Below, one piece after another: positions 19,157 through 58,148 of a stretch of DNA of 64,000 bases (positions are counted from its first letter, which is position 1; each line of letters begins with the position of its first letter). Below the pieces are notes generated by a model that saw only the letters and a program-made list of their open reading frames with translations, was not told the DNA's origin and ran no database searches. The stretch comes from Paracoccus sp. Z118. GTDB taxonomy: Bacteria; Pseudomonadota; Alphaproteobacteria; Rhodobacterales; Rhodobacteraceae. The stretch is taken from the NCBI RefSeq assembly GCF_019061185.1, contig NZ_JAHQZU010000005.1, positions 124,001 through 188,000 on the forward strand. Reading direction: 5' to 3'. The position numbers and the translations under genes are program-made.

Positions 19157-21466
19157 ATGAGCGATGACGAAGCCACCCGGCAACGCCCGGACACCGCCCA
19201 TTACACCAACGCCACCGGCGGCTGGGGGTCGCTGAAGGGCGTGGCCCGCGTTCTTGCCGACCAGAAGCCGACCGCCGGTGCGCTGCGCACGCTGATGCGC
19301 CAGAACAAGGTCGGCGGGCATATGTGCACGTCCTGCGCGTGGACCAAGCCGGCGAACGCCCATCTGTTCGAGTTCTGCGAGAACGGTGCCAAGGCGACCA
19401 TCTGGGACCTGACCCGCGACCGCTGCGGTCCCGATTTCTTCGCCGATCACAGCATCACCAGCCTGCGCGAGCGGTCCGACCACGAGCTGGAGGAGACCGG
19501 CCGCCTGACGCATCCGCTGCGCTACGACGCCGAATCCGACCGCTATGTCGAGACGACGTGGGAGGAGGCGTTCCGGGCGATCGGGGCGAAGCTGCGCGAA
19601 CTCGACCCGAAATCGACGGTCTTCTACGTGTCCGGCCGGGCGAGTCTCGAGACCTCGTATCTTTATGCCCTGTTCGCGCGGCTTTACGGGCACAACAACC
19701 TGCCCGACAGCTCAAACATGTGTCACGAGACGACCGCGGTCGGGCTGAAGAAGGTCATCGGCGTGGGGGTAGGCACCGCCATCCTTGCCGATTTCGATCA
19801 TTGCGATCTCATCATGTTCTTCGGCCAGAACACCGGCTCGAACAGCCCCCGTTTCGAGCATACGCTGAAATCCGCGAAGGAGCGGGGCTGCAGGATCGTC
19901 ACCTTCAATCCGATCCGCGAACGCGGCCTGCTGGAATTCGCCGATCCGCAGAGCCCGGCCGACATGACGGTGAAACCCGCCACCAAGGTCTCGGACATCT
20001 ATCTGCAGGTGCGGCCCGGTGGCGACATCGCGGCGCTGGCCGGGATGTGCAAGCGGGTGCTGGAACTGGACGCCGAGCGGGACGGCGCCATCCTCGACCG
20101 CGACTTCATCGACGCGCATACGACCGGCCTGGATGAGCTGAAGGCGCGGCTGGGCCAGATCACCTGGGACGAGATCGAGCGCGAAACCGGCCTGCGCCGC
20201 GCCGATATCGAGCAGGTGGCCGAGCTTTACGCCGATTCCAGGAACACCATCGGCATCTATGGGATGGGCCTGACCCAGCACGTCAAGGGCTGGCTGAACC
20301 TCGCGATGCTGGTCAACCTGCTGATGCTGCGGGGCAATATCGGGCGCGACGGAACCGGCGTTTCGCCCGTGCGGGGGCATTCCAACGTGCAGGGGCAGGC
20401 GACGGTCGGCGTGACCTACAACCCCGAGAACGTTCCGAGCGACAAGCTGCGCGAGCTGTTCGGCTTCGAGCCGCCGCAGGAAAAGGGGCGCACCATCGTC
20501 AAGACCGCCGAAGGGCTGCTGGACGGTTCGGTCAAGGGGATGATCGTCCTGGGCGGCAATCTCGTCCGCTCGATGCCCGACCGGGAACGGATCGAGCCGT
20601 GCTGGGCCGATCTGGAGCTTAACGTGCAGGTGGCGACCAAGCTGAACCGGGGGCATCTCTATCCCGGCAAGAACAGCTGGCTGCTGCCCTGTCTCGTCCG
20701 GTCCGAGGAGGACATGCAGGCGACCGGCCCGCAGGCCGTGACGATGGAGGACAGCCTCAGCATGATTCACGGCTCGCTCGGCAAGCGAAAGCCGGCCTCG
20801 CCGCATCTGAAATCCGAGGTGGCGATCGTCGCAGGCATCGCCAAGGAGACGCTGCCCGAAAATCCCAAGGTCGGCTGGGACGACTGGACCGGCCATTACG
20901 GCCTGATCCGCGATCTGATCGAGGCGAGCTATCCCGACATGTTCGCCGATTTCAACGCCAAGCTGTTCACGCCCGGCGGCTTCTACAAGGGCAACGACGC
21001 GCGCGAGCGGATCTGGAAGACCGACAGCGGCAAGGCTCAGTTCACCGCGCCCCAGACGCTGAACGCCTTGGGCGAGGAGCCCAGGGGCGACGAGGTGACG
21101 CTGTTCACGCTGCGCTCGAACGACCAGTTCAACACCACCATCTACGGCTTCTCGGACCGGCTGCGGGGGATCGCGGGCAGCCGCGAGAACCTGCTCATCA
21201 ACCCCGAGGAGATGCGGCGGCGGGGCCTGACCGAAGGGCAGGCGGTGATGCTGGAATGCGCCATCGCCGACGGCAACACGAGGGTGGTCCGCGGCCTGCG
21301 CGTCGTGCCCTACGACCTGCCGGATGCCTGCATCGCGGCCTACTATCCCGAAACGAACCCGCTGATCCCCGTCGCCTATCACGACGAGCTGTCGCAAACC
21401 CCCGGCTACAAGGGCGTGCCGGTGCGCATCCGGGCCGACGAGACCGAAGCGAGGGCTGCCGAATGA
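19157..21466 (+). CDS. YdeP/FdhF-family molybdopterin oxidoreductase
   Basis: A 769-residue member of the DMSO reductase superfamily, in the FdhA-like/YdeP branch. CTSC (residues 57-60) and Cys74 form the N-terminal cysteine group; the Mo-ligand position is in SNMCHE (Cys189); GRASLETSY and FFGQNTGSNSP are cofactor-binding segments; and the C-terminal molybdopterin dinucleotide domain starts near 640 (LFTLRSNDQFNTT). There is no twin-arginine signal, so it is cytoplasmic. The reaction is unknown; E. coli YdeP is tied to acid resistance and this family is often labelled formate dehydrogenase without proof. It overlaps the CtaG-like gene by 4 bases (ATGA), linking it to the oxidase genes. Confidence 0.88.
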   Translation: MSDDEATRQRPDTAHYTNATGGWGSLKGVARVLADQKPTAGALRTLMRQNKVGGHMCTSCAWTKPANAHLFEFCENGAKATIWDLTRDRCGPDFFADHSITSLRERSDHELEETGRLTHPLRYDAESDRYVETTWEEAFRAIGAKLRELDPKSTVFYVSGRASLETSYLYALFARLYGHNNLPDSSNMCHETTAVGLKKVIGVGVGTAILADFDHCDLIMFFGQNTGSNSPRFEHTLKSAKERGCRIVTFNPIRERGLLEFADPQSPADMTVKPATKVSDIYLQVRPGGDIAALAGMCKRVLELDAERDGAILDRDFIDAHTTGLDELKARLGQITWDEIERETGLRRADIEQVAELYADSRNTIGIYGMGLTQHVKGWLNLAMLVNLLMLRGNIGRDGTGVSPVRGHSNVQGQATVGVTYNPENVPSDKLRELFGFEPPQEKGRTIVKTAEGLLDGSVKGMIVLGGNLVRSMPDRERIEPCWADLELNVQVATKLNRGHLYPGKNSWLLPCLVRSEEDMQATGPQAVTMEDSLSMIHGSLGKRKPASPHLKSEVAIVAGIAKETLPENPKVGWDDWTGHYGLIRDLIEASYPDMFADFNAKLFTPGGFYKGNDARERIWKTDSGKAQFTAPQTLNALGEEPRGDEVTLFTLRSNDQFNTTIYGFSDRLRGIAGSRENLLINPEEMRRRGLTEGQAVMLECAIADGNTRVVRGLRVVPYDLPDACIAAYYPETNPLIPVAYHDELSQTPGYKGVPVRIRADETEARAAE

Positions 21467-22176
21467 TCCCCGACATCTGGGCGGGCATCTATTGCGGCCC
21501 GGCGCCGAATCCCGGCGAGTTGTGGCAAAGCTGGAACCTCGATCCGGTCCTGCTGGCGGCGATGGCGGCGCTTGCCTTCGTGCTGGGCCGATCGCGCCCC
21601 GGCGCGGCGGCGGTGGCGGTGCTGGCGGTGGCGTTCGTCTCGCCGCTCTGTGCGCTGTCGGCGGCGCTGTTCTCGGCGCGGGTGGTCCATCACATCCTGC
21701 TGGTTGCGGTCGCGGCGCCACTGATCGCGCTGGCGTTCCCCGCGCGGCGCGAGGGGCATCCGGCGCTGCCGTTCATCGTCTCGACGGCGGTGCTGTGGCT
21801 CTGGCATCTGCCGGAGGCCTATGACGCGGCGATGGCCGACATTGCGGTCTACTGGGTGATGCAGGTCACGCTGCTGGGTTCGGCCACGGTGTTCTGGCGG
21901 GCGGTGTTCGGCTTCGGCCGGACCTCGGCGCAGTCGCTGCTGTTCATTCTCGGCGCCTACATGCAGATGGGCCTGCTGGGCGCGCTGCTGACCTTCGCGC
22001 CGGGCACGCTCTACGCGATCCATGCCGTTGCGCCGCTGCAATGGGGCTACGCCCCGCTGGCCGACCAGCAGCTTGGCGGGATCATCATGTGGGTGCCGGC
22101 AGGCATCCCCTATGCGGCCTTCGGCGCGTTCGTGGCGCTGCGCGGCTGGCGGCGGATGCAGGGACGACCGGCATGA
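21463..22176 (+). CDS. CtaG-like (Caa3_CtaG) oxidase assembly membrane protein
   Basis: A 237-residue membrane protein with about six helices. Residues near 68-75 (ARVVHHILLV) and 106-115 (LWLWHLPEAYDAA) hold the conserved histidines of the Caa3_CtaG family, the DUF1404-type proteins associated with assembly of heme-copper oxidases; it is not the Cox11-type CtaG. It is coupled at both ends by ATGA overlaps, with the molybdopterin enzyme upstream and the CopD/HemJ-like gene downstream. Confidence 0.82.
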   Translation: MIPDIWAGIYCGPAPNPGELWQSWNLDPVLLAAMAALAFVLGRSRPGAAAVAVLAVAFVSPLCALSAALFSARVVHHILLVAVAAPLIALAFPARREGHPALPFIVSTAVLWLWHLPEAYDAAMADIAVYWVMQVTLLGSATVFWRAVFGFGRTSAQSLLFILGAYMQMGLLGALLTFAPGTLYAIHAVAPLQWGYAPLADQQLGGIIMWVPAGIPYAAFGAFVALRGWRRMQGRPA

Positions 22177-22688
22177 TCGACTGGCTTCAGCCGATCATCC
22201 CGCATCTGAAGGCGCTGCACATCATGGGGCTGGTGATCTGGTGCGCGGGCCTTTTCGCCATGCCGATGATCCTCGCCCGGCACAATCCGGGCGTGGATCA
22301 GGTCGCCTACAGCCGCATCAGGCTGGCGTCGCATTTCGGCTATATCTGGGTCATCACCCCCGCCGCGCTGACGGCGATCGCGGCGGGCACGCTGCTGATC
22401 TTCGTGCGTGAGGTGTTCGTCATCTGGATGTTCGCCAAGCTGATCTTCGTGGCGCTGCTGATCGCCTTTCACGCCTGGGTCGGCGGCCAGATCGTCGGCA
22501 TCGGCGAGGAGGAGCGCGCGCACCGGACGCCCCAGCCCACGGTGCCGCTGCTGCTGCTGACGGTGCCGGTCGTCATGATCCTCGTGCTGGTCCTCGCCAA
22601 GCCCGAGCTGGAGCGGATTCCCATGCCCGACTGGCTGATGCAGCCAAGGGGCAATCAGTTGCCGTTCGACGATCCCCCCAGATTGTAA
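22173..22688 (+). CDS. CopD/HemJ-like membrane protein
   Basis: A 171-residue protein with four membrane helices. The start HLKALHIMGLVIWCAGLF and the pattern of an early His and a Lys-Leu-Ile-Phe helix (FAKLIFVALLIAFHAWVG) resemble HemJ (protoporphyrinogen IX oxidase, UPF0093) and CopD-domain proteins. A heme-related or copper-related role would suit an oxidase operon, but the sequence does not decide between them. Its 3' end overlaps the convergent DUF2231 gene by 34 bases. Confidence 0.75.
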   Translation: MIDWLQPIIPHLKALHIMGLVIWCAGLFAMPMILARHNPGVDQVAYSRIRLASHFGYIWVITPAALTAIAAGTLLIFVREVFVIWMFAKLIFVALLIAFHAWVGGQIVGIGEEERAHRTPQPTVPLLLLTVPVVMILVLVLAKPELERIPMPDWLMQPRGNQLPFDDPPRL

Positions 22689-23230
22689 TCGAAAACGAGC
22701 TTGCCGCCATGCCATCCCGTTGCGCCCACCATGACGACGCAGAAGCCCGACAGCAGGATGCCCCAGGGCAGCACCGCCGATTCAAACCCCTGCATCCGAT
22801 AACCCCAGTTCAGCCCCAGCAGCGACAGCAGCACCATGGCGATGGCCGCATGGGTCCAGGCCGAGGCCCGCTGCCGGATGCCGGGGACGAGCAGCAGCTC
22901 CGGCAGGCCTGTCAGCGCCGCGGCCAGCCCGATCAGAAACGAGACGCCCGCGGCCCACAGCCCGGCCCGCGCCCAGAAGATGTCGCCCGTCCACCAGTAG
23001 AACACGTCCGCACCGAAATTGCTGAAGGTCAGCGCGATCGGGAAGGCGACGGCCATCGCATGGATCGGATGGCTGCCGACCGCGATCTTCGATCCGGTCT
23101 GGTGGAAGCCCGGCCGCTTGGCGACGGGGTCGGTCAGACCGCCCGTATGCGTCTCGCTTTCCTTGCGGTAATCCTCGTCCGGGGTGCCGTTCTGCGGGCG
23201 ATCCTGCGGGTCGTTCCGGGTGTCGGTCAT
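22655..23230 (-). CDS. DUF2231 membrane protein
   Basis: A 191-residue protein. The first 45 residues are hydrophilic and charged (DPQDRPQNGTPDEDYRKE), followed by four helices carrying the DUF2231 pattern: HPIHAMAVAFPIALTFSNFGADVFYWW, LPELLLVPGIRQRASAWTHAAIAMVLLSL and TGWHGGKLVFDY. The conserved His residues (HP-H, TH, WHGG) suggest heme or metal binding. It is antiparallel inside the oxidase gene group: its end overlaps the CopD-like gene and its start lies 21 bases from the divergent subunit II start. AGGAGAG is 7 bases before ATG 23230. Role unknown. Confidence 0.85.
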   Translation of the reverse strand: MTDTRNDPQDRPQNGTPDEDYRKESETHTGGLTDPVAKRPGFHQTGSKIAVGSHPIHAMAVAFPIALTFSNFGADVFYWWTGDIFWARAGLWAAGVSFLIGLAAALTGLPELLLVPGIRQRASAWTHAAIAMVLLSLLGLNWGYRMQGFESAVLPWGILLSGFCVVMVGATGWHGGKLVFDYNLGGSSNGN

Positions 23231-23251
23231 CGTCGCGCTCTCCTGCGAGGG

Positions 23252-23923
23252 GTGGTCGCAACCGTAACGCCGCTGGCGCTGGCTGGTTGCGAAGAGAGGC
23301 TCTCGACCGTCCACCCCGCCGGGCCGGCGGCGGATGCGATCGCGGTGCTGTGGTGGGTGATGCTGATCGGCGCGGCTGCGATCTTCGCGCTGGTCGCCGT
23401 GCTGCTGGTCATGGCCTTCCGCCGGAGCGAGGAGCATCCGGGCGCCGAAGCCGATGCGCGGCACGAGCGGATCTGGATCAAGGCGATGGGCCTCGGCTTC
23501 ACGCTGACGGTGCTGGCCGCGCTGACCGTCTGGGGCATCTATATCGGCGAGCGGCTGCTGCCCCGCCCCGGCCCCGAGGTGGTCAGCGTCGGCGCGACGG
23601 GCGCGCAGTGGACGTGGCGCTTCACCTATGCCGACGCGCCGGGCCGACAGACCGAGGGTGTCCTGCACATCCCCGCCGGCCGCCCCGTCGATGTGGGGAT
23701 CGAGTCGGCGGACGTGATCCACAGCTTCTGGGTGCCGCGCCTCGCGGGCAAGCTGGACGCCGTTCCGGGCCATACCAACGTCCTGCGGATACAGGCGGAC
23801 GCGCCGGGCGACTATGCCGGGCTGAGCGCCGAGTTCAGCGGCCCCGGCTATACCGGCCACCGCTTCACCGTGCGCGCCCATGACGAGGCCGGCTGGGATG
23901 CCTTTCTGCGGGGAGAAGGTTGA
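23252..23923 (+). CDS. heme-copper oxidase subunit II lacking CuA (quinol-oxidase type)
   Basis: A subunit II lipoprotein of about 223 residues. The lipobox LALAGC is followed by two membrane helices (residues about 28-51 and 71-93) and a cupredoxin domain. The CuA ligand loop, normally containing CxxxC and a following His/Met, reads GLSAEFSGPGYTGHRF with no cysteine, and the whole mature domain has none apart from the lipidated one. This fits a quinol-oxidising enzyme (CyoA/QoxA-like) rather than a cytochrome c oxidase. The start is uncertain: GTG 23252 gives a short lipoprotein signal; ATG 23147 would add 35 residues but overlap the divergent DUF2231 gene. Its stop overlaps the next start (TGATG). 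Confidence 0.8.
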   Translation: MVATVTPLALAGCEERLSTVHPAGPAADAIAVLWWVMLIGAAAIFALVAVLLVMAFRRSEEHPGAEADARHERIWIKAMGLGFTLTVLAALTVWGIYIGERLLPRPGPEVVSVGATGAQWTWRFTYADAPGRQTEGVLHIPAGRPVDVGIESADVIHSFWVPRLAGKLDAVPGHTNVLRIQADAPGDYAGLSAEFSGPGYTGHRFTVRAHDEAGWDAFLRGEG

Positions 23924-26406
23924 TGAATGCACTGCGCCGCCATCGCGAGCTGGAACGCATCTGGGGCCCGCGTCCGGGCTGGCGGGGCATGCTGACGACG
24001 GTGAACAACAACGACATCGGGCTGATGTTCCTGATCGTCGCGGCCACGTTCTTCTCGATCGCGGGCGTGCTGGCGATGCTGATCCGGGCCCAGCTCGCCA
24101 CGCCCGAATCCGTCTTCGTGGGGCCCGAGGTCTTCAACCAGCTCTTCACGATGCACGGGACCATCATGATGTTCCTGTTCGCGATCCCGCTGTTCGAGGG
24201 GCTGACGATCTATCTGCTGCCGAAGATGCTGGGGACGCGCGACCTCGCCTTTCCGCGCCTCAGCGCCTTCGGCTTCTGGTGCTACCTGTTCGGCGGCTCG
24301 CTGCTGATCTTCTCGATGGTGGCGGGGATCGCGCCGAACAGCGGCTGGTTCATGTATCCGCCGCTGTCATCGACGCTCGGCACGCCCGGCATCAACTCGG
24401 ATTTCTGGCTGCTGGGGATCACCTTCGTCGAGATTTCGGCGATCTCGGCGGCGGTCGAGATCGTGGTGACGATCCTGCTCTACCGCGCCGCCGGCATGTC
24501 GCTGGACAAGATGCCGATCTTCGCCTGGTATATGCTGATCGTCGCGGTGATGATCTTGACGGCGTTCCCGCCGATGATCCTCGGCTCGATCCTGTTGGAG
24601 CTGGAGCGCGCCTTCGGCATGCCCTTCTTCCAGGTCGAGCATGGCGGCGACAGCCTGCTGTGGCTGCATCTGTTCTGGCTGTTCGGCCACCCCGAGGTCT
24701 ACATCATCTTCCTGCCCGCCGCCGGGGTCGTGTCCACCGTGCTGCCGGTGATGGCCCGCACCACGCTGCTGGGCTACGGCTGGCTCGTCGCCGCCGTCGC
24801 CGCGCTGGGGGTGCTGAGCTTCGGGCTGTGGGTCCACCACATGTTCACCACCGGCATCCCGCATATGGGGCTGGCCTTCTTCTCGGCCGCATCGACGCTG
24901 GTGGCGGTGCCCACCGGGTTGCAGATCTTCGCCTGGATCGGGACGATCTGGAAGGGCCGGCCCGAGATGCACCTGCCGATGCGCTGGATTCTGGGGTTCT
25001 TCGCGACCTTCGTGATCGGCGGGCTGACCGGGGTGATGATCGCCATGGTGCCCTTCAACTTCCAGTCGCACGACACCTATTTCATCGTGGCGCATTTCCA
25101 CTATGTGCTGGTGGGCGGCTTCGTCTTCCCGATGATCGCCGGCATTTATTACTGGCTGCCGCATTTCACCGGCCGCAAGCGCTTCTTCAGGATCGGAGAG
25201 ACGGCATTCTGGCTGGTCTTCATCGGCTTTCACGGCACGTTCCTGCTGCTGCACTGGGCCGGGCTGCTGGGGATGCGGCGGCGGATCGACCATGTGGACG
25301 CGGGGTCCGGGTGGGAGGGGATCAACCTCATCTCCTCGGTCGGCGGCTTCGTGATGGCGATGGGCTTTGCGCTCATCATCATCGACATCGGCGTGAACGT
25401 GGCGGTGGCGAGCCGCGGGCCGCGCAACCCATGGAAGGCGGGCACGCTGGAATGGGCGATGCCCGCGCCGTCGGGGGCCTACAACATGGCCTCGATCCCG
25501 ACCGTGCGCAGCCGCGATCCGCTGCATGACGACCCCGACCTTCCGCTGCGCATCGCGCGGGGCGAGGGGTATCTGGGCACCCCGCCCGCCAGCGGCCTGC
25601 GCGAGACGATGATGGTCGAGATGTCCAGCGGGCGGCCCAGCCACAAGATCATCTTCCCCGGCAACTCCGCCATGCCCATCACCATGGCGGTGGTGACGGG
25701 CGGGCTGTTTATGGGGATGCTGCTGAAATGGTACTGGCTGGTGCCGCTGTCGGCGCTCGGCGTGATCGGCATGGCGGTCTGGTGGGCCTGGGGCCTCGGC
25801 AGCCGCCGGGACGAGGGGTTGCAGGATGTCGGCAACGGCCTCGCCCTGCCGCCCGGCACGCAGTCGGTGAACCCGCCGGGCTGGTGGGGCTCGCTGTTCA
25901 CGCTGCTCGCGGACGGGGTGATGTTCGGATCGCTGCTGTTCGGCTATGCGTTCCTGTTCACGCTGGCGCCGAACTGGCCGCCGCCCGAATGGTTGCGCCC
26001 CGAACAGCGCGACCTGATGCTGTGGCTGGGCGGCGCGGTGCTGGCCTTCGGCGGTATCCGCCTTGCCGACGGCGCCCTGCGGCGCGAGGGGACGCCGTGG
26101 CCGGGCCTTCTGATCGGGCTGGCGGGGCTGGCCGGCCTTGGCGCGGCGGCGCTGTCGGTGCTGCGCGGCACCACCCATGACGGCCACGCCTATGAGGCGA
26201 CGCTGTGGGTGCTGGGCGGCTATGTCCTGTTCCATGTCGCCGTGGCGCTCATCATGATGGCGTTCCTCTGCGTCCGGGAAAGCTTCGGCTATCTGTCGGC
26301 GCTGCGGATCGGCGAGGCGCGGGTGGTGCGGCTGTGGTCCGACTATGCCGTTGCGGTGGCCCTGCTGGGGCTCGGCGCGGCGTGGCTGCCGGGGCTCGCG
26401 CCATGA
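23923..26406 (+). CDS. heme-copper oxidase subunit I fused to subunit III
   Basis: An 827-residue fusion. Residues 30-500 are subunit I; 635-827 resemble subunit III. Ligands are intact: His78 and His393 for low-spin heme, His391 for the high-spin heme, His256, His305 and His306 for CuB, and Tyr260 of HPEVY for the cross-linked tyrosine. Glu258 (E286 equivalent) and Asp107 (D-channel mouth) are present. However, the K-channel lysine position (PTGVKVF in standard enzymes) reads PTGLQIF, with Gln334, and the D-channel asparagines of FGN and PRMNN are replaced (LTIY, PRLSA). Oxygen reduction by quinol is the likeliest activity. It overlaps the small downstream gene by 4 bases. Confidence 0.9.
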   Translation: MNALRRHRELERIWGPRPGWRGMLTTVNNNDIGLMFLIVAATFFSIAGVLAMLIRAQLATPESVFVGPEVFNQLFTMHGTIMMFLFAIPLFEGLTIYLLPKMLGTRDLAFPRLSAFGFWCYLFGGSLLIFSMVAGIAPNSGWFMYPPLSSTLGTPGINSDFWLLGITFVEISAISAAVEIVVTILLYRAAGMSLDKMPIFAWYMLIVAVMILTAFPPMILGSILLELERAFGMPFFQVEHGGDSLLWLHLFWLFGHPEVYIIFLPAAGVVSTVLPVMARTTLLGYGWLVAAVAALGVLSFGLWVHHMFTTGIPHMGLAFFSAASTLVAVPTGLQIFAWIGTIWKGRPEMHLPMRWILGFFATFVIGGLTGVMIAMVPFNFQSHDTYFIVAHFHYVLVGGFVFPMIAGIYYWLPHFTGRKRFFRIGETAFWLVFIGFHGTFLLLHWAGLLGMRRRIDHVDAGSGWEGINLISSVGGFVMAMGFALIIIDIGVNVAVASRGPRNPWKAGTLEWAMPAPSGAYNMASIPTVRSRDPLHDDPDLPLRIARGEGYLGTPPASGLRETMMVEMSSGRPSHKIIFPGNSAMPITMAVVTGGLFMGMLLKWYWLVPLSALGVIGMAVWWAWGLGSRRDEGLQDVGNGLALPPGTQSVNPPGWWGSLFTLLADGVMFGSLLFGYAFLFTLAPNWPPPEWLRPEQRDLMLWLGGAVLAFGGIRLADGALRREGTPWPGLLIGLAGLAGLGAAALSVLRGTTHDGHAYEATLWVLGGYVLFHVAVALIMMAFLCVRESFGYLSALRIGEARVVRLWSDYAVAVALLGLGAAWLPGLAP

Positions 26407-26723
26407 ACGACATCCTGCGCATCTCGGTCCCGCTGACCGTGTGGATCGCCGCCTTCAGCGCCGTCTATGGATTGCAGGGCATCGTCTGTTCCGATCACTG
26501 GGGCGCGGCGGGGCTGGGCCTTTCCGCCGCCCGCGCCGCGCTGGTGGCGGCGTGGCTGGTCGCCATCGCGATCCAGCTTGGCCTGCTGCTGGTGCTGCAG
26601 ACGCCGCGCTACGCCTCGCCTTCGCGCTGGGTGCGGTGGGTCAGCGTGGCGCTCGGGATCGTGGCGCTGATCTCGACGGTATGGACGCTGCTGCCGGTCG
26701 TCATGACCTCGGTTTGCATTTGA
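26403..26723 (+). CDS. small membrane protein of the oxidase operon
   Basis: A 106-residue protein with three hydrophobic segments (about residues 9-28, 42-65 and 82-104), translationally coupled to the oxidase gene by an ATGA overlap. Position and size suggest a subunit IV-like or assembly component, but I do not recognise a family. It has two cysteines, one in GIVCSDHW and one at the penultimate residue. Confidence 0.75.
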   Translation: MNDILRISVPLTVWIAAFSAVYGLQGIVCSDHWGAAGLGLSAARAALVAAWLVAIAIQLGLLLVLQTPRYASPSRWVRWVSVALGIVALISTVWTLLPVVMTSVCI

Positions 26724-56759: not shown

Positions 56760-58148
56760 ATGAAATATCAATCACAACGCATCGCCTACACCTATTTCGG
56801 CTGCGCGCTGGCGCTTTTCGCGCTGCAGGTCACGTTCGGCCTGATGATGGGCTATATCTATGTCCAGCCGAACTGGCTGTCCGAGATCCTGCCCTTCAAC
56901 ATCATCCGCATGCTGCACACCAACTCGCTGATCGTGTGGCTGCTGCTGGGCTTCTTCGGCTCGGCCTACTACCTGGTCCCCGAAGAGGCCGAGCGCGAGA
57001 TCCACTCGCCCATGCTGGCCTATCTTCAGCTGCTGATCCTCGTCGTCGGCACGCTGGGCGCGGTGGTGACGTATATCTTCAACTTCTTCCAGGGCAGCTA
57101 TCTGCTGGGCACCCAGGGGCGCGAGTTCCTCGAGCAGCCCACCTGGGTCAAGGTCGGCATCGCGGTCGCCGCGGTGATCTTCCTCTATAACGTCACGCTG
57201 ACCGTGCTGCGCGGGCGCAAGACCGCGATTTCCAACGTGCTGCTGCTGGGCCTCTGGGGGCTGGCGGTGCTGTGGCTGTTCGCCTTCTACAACCCGGTCA
57301 ACCTGGTGCTGGACAAGCTCTACTGGTGGTATGTCGTCCATCTGTGGGTCGAGGGCGTCTGGGAACTCATCATGGCCGCGATCCTGGCCTTCCTGATGCT
57401 GAAGCTGACGGGGGTGGACCGCGAGGTCGTGGAAAAATGGCTGTATGTCATCGTCGCCACGGCGCTGTTCTCGGGTATCCTCGGGACCGGGCACCACTAC
57501 TACTGGATCGGCCTGCCGGCCTACTGGCAGTGGATCGGCTCGATCTTCTCCAGCTTCGAGATCGTGCCCTTCTTCGCGATGATGGCCTTCGCCTTCGTGA
57601 TGGTCTGGAAGGGCCGGCGCGATCACCCGAACAAGGCCGCCCTGCTGTGGAGCCTCGGCTGCACCGTGCTGGCGTTCTTCGGCGCCGGGATCTGGGGCTT
57701 CCTGCACACGCTGCACGGGGTGAACTACTACACCCATGGCACGCAGATCACGGCGGCGCACGGCCACCTGGCCTTCTACGGCGCCTATGTCTGCCTCGTG
57801 CTGGCGATCGTCACCTATGCGCTGCCGATCATGCGGGGCCGCGATCCCTATAACCAGGTGCTGAACATGGCCTCGTTCTGGCTGATGTCCGGTGGGATGC
57901 TGTTCATGACCTTCACGCTCACCTTCGCCGGAACGGTCCAGACGCATCTTCAGCGGGTGAACGGCGAAGCCTATATGGACGTGCAGGACCAGCTGGGCAT
58001 CTTCTACTGGATGCGCTTCGGCTCGGGCGTGGCGGTCGTGGTGGGCGCGCTGCTGTTCATCTACTCGGTCGCCGTCGTGCGGCGCGAGGTCGTGACGCCC
58101 GGCCCGGTGCAAGCCCACAAGGACGGCCATATCGAGCCTGCGGAGTAA
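56760..58148 (+). CDS. norB: nitric oxide reductase large subunit
   Basis: A 462-residue, 12-helix membrane protein of the heme-copper superfamily, identical in length to Paracoccus NorB. His53 binds heme b; [10 protein letters not shown] contains the FeB His and the nearby Glu residues; GTGHHYYW holds the His pair of the FeB site; [15 protein letters not shown] holds the ligands of hemes b3 and b. It reduces two NO to N2O with electrons from NorC. It starts 12 bases after norC. Confidence 0.97.

Follow-up and report, generated by a model that had tools for sequence, protein, structure and literature searches.

A CuA-less A-type haem-copper oxidase with altered proton-channel residues in Paracoccus sp. 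Z118, probably a quinol oxidase

A 64,000-nucleotide stretch of the Paracoccus sp. Z118 genome (contig NZ_JAHQZU010000005.1, positions 124,001 to 188,000; hereafter the window) contains a haem-copper oxidase locus in which subunit II lacks the cysteines of the CuA centre and the fused subunit I/III lacks the lysine of the K channel, raising the question of where such an enzyme obtains its electrons and protons and how it arose. The results described herein suggested that it is probably an O2-reducing A-type enzyme that lost CuA independently of the bo3 and aa3-600 oxidases, acts most likely as a quinol oxidase, and takes up protons by a remodelled route, possibly one decoupled from pumping.

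Subunit II begins at a GTG codon (23252), carries the lipobox LAGC and ends with the stop codon at 23921-23923. Its matches in the Protein Data Bank were subunit II of the Thermus caa3 oxidase, subunit 2 of aa3-600, and CyoA. When the CuA-site region of the window protein (GLSAEFSGPGYTGHRF) was compared with that of the CuA subunit of Thermus caa3 (FCAELCGASHARMLF), the CuA Cys, Cys, His and Met were found to be replaced by Ser, Ser, Tyr and His, respectively, so that four of the six ligands were lost, and the first CuA His (DVIHSF) and the CuA Glu were still present. Through these four replacements, the protein lacks the ligand set that characterizes subunit II of a cytochrome c oxidase, and the loop at the site now reads SGPGYTG, similar to SGPGFSG of CyoA.

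The ATG codon of subunit I/III (23923) overlaps the subunit II stop codon, and the encoded protein of 827 residues, numbered from that ATG by computation, retained the six His ligands (H78, H256, H305/306 and H391/393), the Tyr of the HPEVY motif (Y260), and the equivalents of Glu286 (E258) and Asp132 (D107), in agreement with an A-type enzyme. Lys354/362, together with Thr, Ser and Tyr, is given as a K-channel feature of the A-type in the accessible part of one account (PMC3084760); in the window protein the equivalents of the latter three were kept and the Lys was Gln334. Since Q334 fell on K362 of the Rhodobacter enzyme with the PTG motif in register in an alignment of 191 sequences, we rejected the possibility that the lysine had shifted to a nearby site; the nearest downstream lysine (QIFAWIGTIWK) lies 10 residues from Q334. 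The D-channel asparagines of A-type enzymes (Asn113/131/199 in Paracoccus numbering; N121/N139/N207 hereafter) were likewise absent, with Ile96, Ser114 and Glu179 in their places, the third asparagine having turned into a carboxylate. A sequence-only reading of this locus had claimed the absence of the CuA cysteines, the retention of the metal ligands with Tyr260, Glu258 and Asp107, Gln334 (PTGLQIF) at the K-channel lysine position, and the replacement of the D-channel asparagines; all of these were borne out by the comparison with Thermus caa3 and the alignment, with identical numbering. The protein scored above the curated cut-off of TIGR02891 (CtaD_CoxA; Table 1), and its AlphaFold2 model had a predicted template-modelling score (pTM) of 0.88 and a mean predicted local distance difference test score (pLDDT) of 82.5, with stretches including 139-159, 254-257 and 305-316 below 50. 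Judged by its sequence and its position in the trees, which place it beside the A-type enzymes, subunit I/III is a variant rather than a typical A-type member.

The alignment comprised 191 subunit I sequences picked by their similarity to the window protein, 187 of which had a subunit II, including 18 lysine-type sequences as a hand-picked outgroup. Part of the sample was drawn from the best 80 of 558 confirmed loci. A scan of alphaproteobacterial genomes, in which at most two candidates were scored per genome and the counts are thus lower bounds, supplied 26 of its 28 strong matches outside the window genome; 19 of the 21 rows of a scan of the window's genus (those of the window genome and G013 apart) and 35 hand-picked places from another search were also taken. 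Haem c was scored as CxxCH within the subunit II frame, and no CuA call was made for L001, L102, L131 and L154, which had no subunit II. Trees were built from 190 rows with the trait columns left out and from 94 rows with a mixture model, the partial sequence L180 being excluded.

In this sample the K362 position was occupied by Gln in 161 sequences (a proportion of 161/191 that, given the way of sampling, is no natural frequency), Lys in 18, Ala in 6, Met in 4, and Thr and Gly in one each. All three D-channel asparagines were kept in the 18 lysine-type sequences, N207 being Asn in 18/18, and the N207 position was Glu in 162 of the 164 Q/M-type sequences scored. As for the non-lysine sequences, Glu was found there in all 67 CuA-less forms and in 94 of 105 CuA-bearing ones (Asn in 8/105), and Gln at K362 was shared by 97 CuA-bearing relatives. 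Since relatives with an intact CuA have the same Gln and Glu, the remodelling of the channels predates the loss of CuA and extends beyond it, and we rejected the idea that losing CuA had caused Lys to be replaced by Gln. The window genome itself holds a CuA-less Gln-type enzyme (L002), a CuA-bearing Gln-type enzyme with the haem-c motif (L003) and a canonical aa3 (L001). Gln for Lys and Glu for Asn207 are the signature of an A-type clade of proteobacteria, the outer members of which still have CuA and a fused haem c. The earlier proposal of a divergent quinol oxidase, possibly with different proton coupling, stood in part: it fits the CuA loss and the channel residues, but the remodelling of the channels is a separate event from that loss.

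The CuB and high-spin-haem histidines, the Tyr, and the Glu286 and Asp132 equivalents were present in 67/67 CuA-less non-lysine sequences, as was the H102 ligand in 66/67 (one gap, L069). Further charged residues (E92, R106 and E170 in the ATG numbering) were typical of the clade, unlike the lysine-type outgroup. Arg452, which we take to adjoin the haem-propionate arginines, was Arg in 66/67 CuA-less sequences; at this position 101/105 CuA-bearing non-lysine sequences had Pro and 1/105 had Arg, and 3/18 lysine-type sequences had Thr. Apart from these, a separate A-type branch (L096, L129, L130, L179, L185, L186, L187 and L190) had Glu286 replaced by Trp and Ala, Thr or Gly at Lys362, with the three asparagines kept; these are the eight CuA-bearing sequences with Asn at the N207 position. 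Some Gln-type relatives differed at the D-channel entry, where the Asp was replaced by Asn, Ser or Ala (L097, L098, L127, L128, L189, L191 and L192) or by Glu (L003, L094, L125 and L194).

On the tree, the losses in subunit II were nested. The haem-c motif was found in 8/8, 35/35 and 2/2 rows of the outer branches. Within the clade whose loci carry a gene for a DUF2231 membrane protein, the basal 14 rows had DUF2231 in 14/14, with Leu at its position 174 in every case, and haem c in 9/14; the five rows combining Leu174 with the absence of haem c were L092, L111, L163, L172 and L175. In the next 21 rows haem c was down to 1/21, both CuA Cys and the Met were kept in 21/21, and position 174 had become His in 18 and Gln in 3. 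The next 26 rows varied in the CuA Met, which was present in 12 and replaced by His or Asn in 13 (subunit II was not found in one); both CuA Cys were kept in 24 and missing from L145, and of the 24 DUF2231 proteins found there, 23 had His174 and one a gap. The innermost 66 rows had no CuA cysteine and no haem-c motif in subunit II, and His174 in 66/66; the second CuA histidine and the methionine were absent as well throughout this clade, the support for which was 100 in the 190-row tree and also 100 for the 29 of its rows included in the mixture-model tree.

The CuA Cys were kept and the Met replaced by His (11) or Asn (2) in L060, L063-L066, L070, L072, L073, L075, L077, L083, L087 and L088, and the CuA sites of these 13 relatives may be altered. 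One sequence from the window's genus, L145 (genome G420), had lost the CuA cysteines, kept the Met, and grouped with CuA-bearing enzymes. A single clade of all CuA-less forms including L145 was rejected by the subunit I tree (approximately unbiased test, p-AU 0.0105). The subunit II tree also placed L145 with CuA-bearing enzymes (support 91) and did not reject one clade (p-AU 0.403), and the plain identity of its subunit II was highest to a CuA-less sequence by one count and to a CuA-bearing one by another. A single origin of all CuA-less forms is thus disfavoured by the placement of L145 in the subunit I tree, and CuA was lost once in the 66-member clade and probably a second time in the species of L145. 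The best explanation for the whole pattern is an ancestor resembling caa3, bearing both CuA and haem c, with the remodelling of both channels already in place. Relatives that lack haem c and others that lack the CuA methionine still exist; through these and the forms devoid of the Cys pair, the route by which a cytochrome c oxidase became an oxidase without CuA can be tested directly.

Like the window enzyme, bo3 and aa3-600 have a cupredoxin-type subunit II without CuA, including the SGPGFSG loop of CyoA. The four sequences of these types in the sample (L100, L101, L139 and L140), however, kept the K-channel lysine and the three asparagines, differed from the window clade at the bo3 quinol-site positions, and fell with the lysine-type outgroup in the 190-row tree, as did L100 and L101 in the mixture-model tree. 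Close kinship with bo3/aa3-600, on the opposite side of both trees, was accordingly rejected; tight clustering with a well-studied quinol oxidase, which would have spoken against a divergent enzyme, was looked for in these trees and not seen. Murali, Hemp and Gennis (BBA 1863:148907, 2022) reportedly recognized that quinol oxidation arose at least seven times independently within the superfamily. Their study very likely has a bearing on the CuA-less branch, and this clade may be one of the independently evolved quinol oxidase lineages already in the literature.

In the mechanism that we favour, electrons would reach haem a most likely from the membrane quinol pool, and O2 would be reduced at an ordinary haem/CuB/Tyr site, the ligands of which are all present. 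The D pathway, running in rebuilt form from Asp107 to Glu258, would be the main route for protons; along it, the carboxylate Glu179 replaces Asn207, and hydrophobic or small residues occupy the positions of Asn121 and Asn139. In the K pathway, the Gln in place of Lys would leave no protonatable residue. The laboratory substitution N207D in the Rhodobacter enzyme reportedly decouples proton pumping, and by analogy the natural Glu at this position may have the same effect. In A-type enzymes, about two of the eight protons are taken up via the K channel and six via the D channel; of these two channels, B- and C-types have the K channel only, according to the consulted part of PMC8239185. A natural clade that lacks the K-channel lysine and mostly keeps Glu286 and Asp132 would thus represent the reverse experiment to the B- and C-types.

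Several points count against the favoured explanation. We take the quinol site of bo3 in subunit I to consist of R71, D75, H98 and Q101; in the CuA-less sequences the R71 position was mostly Val or Ile, D75 was Leu in 66/67 (one gap), and H98 was mostly Ile or Val, with His in 10. Q101 was kept in the CuA-less clade and also in most CuA enzymes. Because most of the bo3 quinol residues are missing, the quinol site would have to be new. The column of the K-channel entry Glu in subunit II was poorly aligned, the pattern E..[WF] there being found in 48/67 CuA-less, 2/13 Met-less, 15/36 and 14/56 other CuA-bearing, and 12/15 lysine-type sequences. The Met-less relatives form side branches whose branching order was weakly supported in the mixture-model tree, so that they can be taken as forms close to the transition but not as established steps in it. 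Finally, among loci with flanks of at least 3 kb, cytochrome c genes were found near 43/52 haem-c-bearing, 2/31 haem-c-free CuA-bearing, 0/12 Met-less and 3/60 CuA-less loci, a count made with 11 queries from haem-c-bearing loci and thus favouring that group; when a profile of the fused haem-c domain was used, the recount gave 22/52, 2/31, 0/12 and 1/60, respectively. The contrast between haem-c-bearing and CuA-less loci speaks in favour of our reading; however, as the haem-c-free CuA-bearing relatives also lack such neighbours (2/31 and 0/12), the cytochrome c context does not single out quinol as the donor.

The alternative that survives best, unlikely as we consider it, is that the DUF2231 protein, possibly together with a HemJ-like one, is a dedicated membrane partner that feeds electrons to the oxidase, as a b-type cytochrome or a quinol-oxidizing module replacing cytochrome c. 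Among the loci with flanks of at least 3 kb, DUF2231 genes were present near 60/60 CuA-less, 12/12 Met-less and 31/31 haem-c-free CuA-bearing loci as opposed to 11/52 haem-c-bearing ones, and were antiparallel to the oxidase in every locus of the first three groups. His54, His57 and His127 were kept in 127-128 of 129 homologues, and the change at position 174 follows the tree from Leu through His with three Gln to His throughout. The AlphaFold2 model of the protein was a confident four-helix bundle (mean pLDDT 83.5), for which the top Foldseek match was cytochrome b561. That match was, however, not significant (E 0.087), four-helix bundles match widely, and the VIA-align Z scores of up to 13.7 lie in a range common for helical bundles. 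Secondary structure would place His54/57, His127 and His174 near one end of the bundle, which fits one haem or a metal site as well, and the CtaG and CopD-like neighbours point instead to copper or haem assembly. Nor is the coupling strict, considering the five haem-c-free rows with Leu174 and L113, which has haem c together with His174. As far as the sequences tell, DUF2231 entered the locus before most of the haem-c losses, and the fourth histidine was gained at about the same stage. A stepwise scenario built on this order, in which DUF2231 (with the HemJ-like protein) joined, the fourth histidine was gained around the time of haem-c loss and CuA then became dispensable, appears rather improbable to us; if true, a membrane electron-entry module built around DUF2231 replaced cytochrome c step by step, and the resulting enzyme, with no protonatable K channel and a naturally decoupled D channel, would remove O2 fast and pump few protons or none. 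DUF2231, a term that occurred in one paper of the open-licence literature searched, is a candidate partner of a respiratory complex.

We regard it as quite improbable that DUF2231, the CopD/HemJ-like protein and CtaG are all assembly factors and that a soluble donor, such as cytochrome c or a cupredoxin, delivers electrons straight to haem a without CuA. The cupredoxin sequence of subunit II does persist, including QWTW, DVIHSFWVP and the CuA Glu, the cysteines are still present in the Met-less relatives, and the pairing of CtaG with CopD resembles the copper factor CtiP of Corynebacterium as described in the consulted part of PMC9145763. On the other hand, none of the 66 rows of the clade has retained either cysteine or the second His, and a haem-c motif occurs in 0/66 of its subunit II sequences.

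A decaying or non-catalytic paralogue is very unlikely. A textbook enzyme deprived of CuA and of its K-channel lysine would be crippled, and the genome also has a canonical aa3; nevertheless, the reading frames are intact, the catalytic ligands are kept, the same gene set recurs at 59-60 of 60 CuA-less loci, and the ratio of nonsynonymous to synonymous substitution (dN/dS) was about 0.13-0.23 at a dS of 0.6-1.1 (NG86, four pairwise comparisons), which indicates purifying selection and led us to reject a pseudogene. Given Gln in 161 of the 191 relatives chosen by similarity and this dN/dS, neither chance nor decay accounts for the replaced lysine. The suggestion that the enzyme uses NO, as a reductase or detoxifying member of the nir/nor set that the sequence-only reading had placed within the same 64 kb, where another gene of the COX1 superfamily starts at 56760, found no support and is extremely improbable: the CuB histidines and the HPEVY Tyr of all 67 CuA-less sequences argue for rejection, the window protein has HPEVY and HHMF with its CuB ligands and Tyr260 rather than the NO reductase motifs H-X-(Arom)-X-E and H-H-X-(Arom)-(Arom)-X17-E given in the available part of PMC3084760, the loci of the relatives have conserved oxidase-type neighbours (CtaG, CopD-like and DUF2231 genes), and the other COX1-superfamily gene is about 30 kb distant.

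Parts of this picture are already in print, at least in the portions of the papers that were consulted: fused COX1-3 with CtaG, coxMNOP oxidases, and K-channel loss within family A in archaea. The alphaproteobacterial COX operon 'type a' (Degli Esposti 2014, 2019; PMC4013037, PMC6431628) resembles the window locus in being A-type with a fused subunit I/III and a CtaG-type gene, and differs in that the window enzyme lacks CuA; the consulted portions of these two accounts contained no mention of Gln for Lys, Glu for Asn207 or DUF2231. Oxidases of the coxMNOP (ccaa3) type are described in PMC5492768, part of which was available. Three sequences in our sample (L097, annotated with a separate subunit III, and its neighbours in the tree, L189 and L191) resemble the window enzyme in having Gln at K362 together with Glu at N207, but keep CuA and the haem-c motif and have Asn at D132. 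From their gene layout we presume these three to be of the coxMNOP type. K-channel loss within family A has been discussed for archaeal COX1 (Degli Esposti 2021, PMC8239418, in the part available), whereas the present case concerns a proteobacterial clade of Gln-type enzymes. Neither the CuA-less clade itself nor, for proteobacteria, the Gln/Glu signature of the channels, the graded loss of CuA or an association with DUF2231 was found described in the accessible portions of the open-licence literature.

Strong matches to the oxidase (E ≤ 2.2e-144) occurred in at least 24 of 387 alphaproteobacterial genomes, including that of the window, and were followed after a gap by the next match at 412 bits; two of them belong to the branch with Glu286 replaced by Trp. 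Of the 37 genomes of the window's genus, 21, again including the window's, had a match. Among them, three genomes other than the window's reached 69-71% identity over the full length, and one matched partially at 67% over 371 residues; a separate search added a further species at 66%. DNA-level matches were found in 38 plasmid records, and plasmids of Paracoccus, Limimaricola and Roseomonas were annotated with an identical gene order, the Roseomonas copy having CuA. This distribution over the genus and plasmids points to horizontal movement of the locus.

As summarized in Table 1, the oxidase locus consists of six genes, from CtaG through a small membrane protein (21463-26723). Caa3_CtaG, a proposed CuB insertion factor, and the small membrane protein at the other end were each encoded at 59 of the 60 CuA-less loci with flanks of at least 3 kb. 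Both cysteines of the latter were kept in 82/82 aligned homologues, and an NCBIfam search with it gave no match. The CopD/HemJ-like protein, annotated as CopD family in the plasmid records, had H16, K89 and H100 invariant among 122-123 aligned homologues.

Table 1. Features of the oxidase locus (positions in the window).
Feature	Position	Strand	Basis
Caa3_CtaG-type assembly protein	21463-22176	+	PF09678 99 bits, E 3e-28 on open reading frame 21256-22176
Small membrane protein, CopD/HemJ-like (UPF0093)	22173-22688	+	PF03653 51 bits; HemJ model below cut-off
DUF2231 four-helix membrane protein, transcribed divergently from subunit II	22655-23230	-	PF09990 116 bits
Subunit II, CuA-less (GLSAEFSGPGYTGHRF), lipoprotein-type signal	23252-23923	+	TIGR02866 134.5 bits on longer frame, cut-off 147.7
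Fused subunit I/III	23923-26406	+	TIGR02891 678.4 bits (cut-off 670.75); PF00115 472 bits
Glu179 codon, D-channel Asn207 position	24457-24459	+	Residue alignment and computed numbering
Gln334 codon, K-channel lysine position	24922-24924	+	Residue alignment and computed numbering
Arg452 codon, GMPRR to GMRRR	25276-25278	+	Residue alignment and computed numbering
Small membrane protein in a subunit-IV-like position, with two conserved cysteines	26403-26723	+	Neighbourhood conservation

The COX1-superfamily gene that starts at 56760 gave weak NCBIfam matches below cut-off. Upstream of the oxidase locus lies a gene for an FdhF/YdeP-family molybdoenzyme (19157-21466), homologues of which were found near 7/60 CuA-less, 1/12 Met-less, 3/31 haem-c-free, 5/52 haem-c-bearing and 0/14 lysine-type loci.

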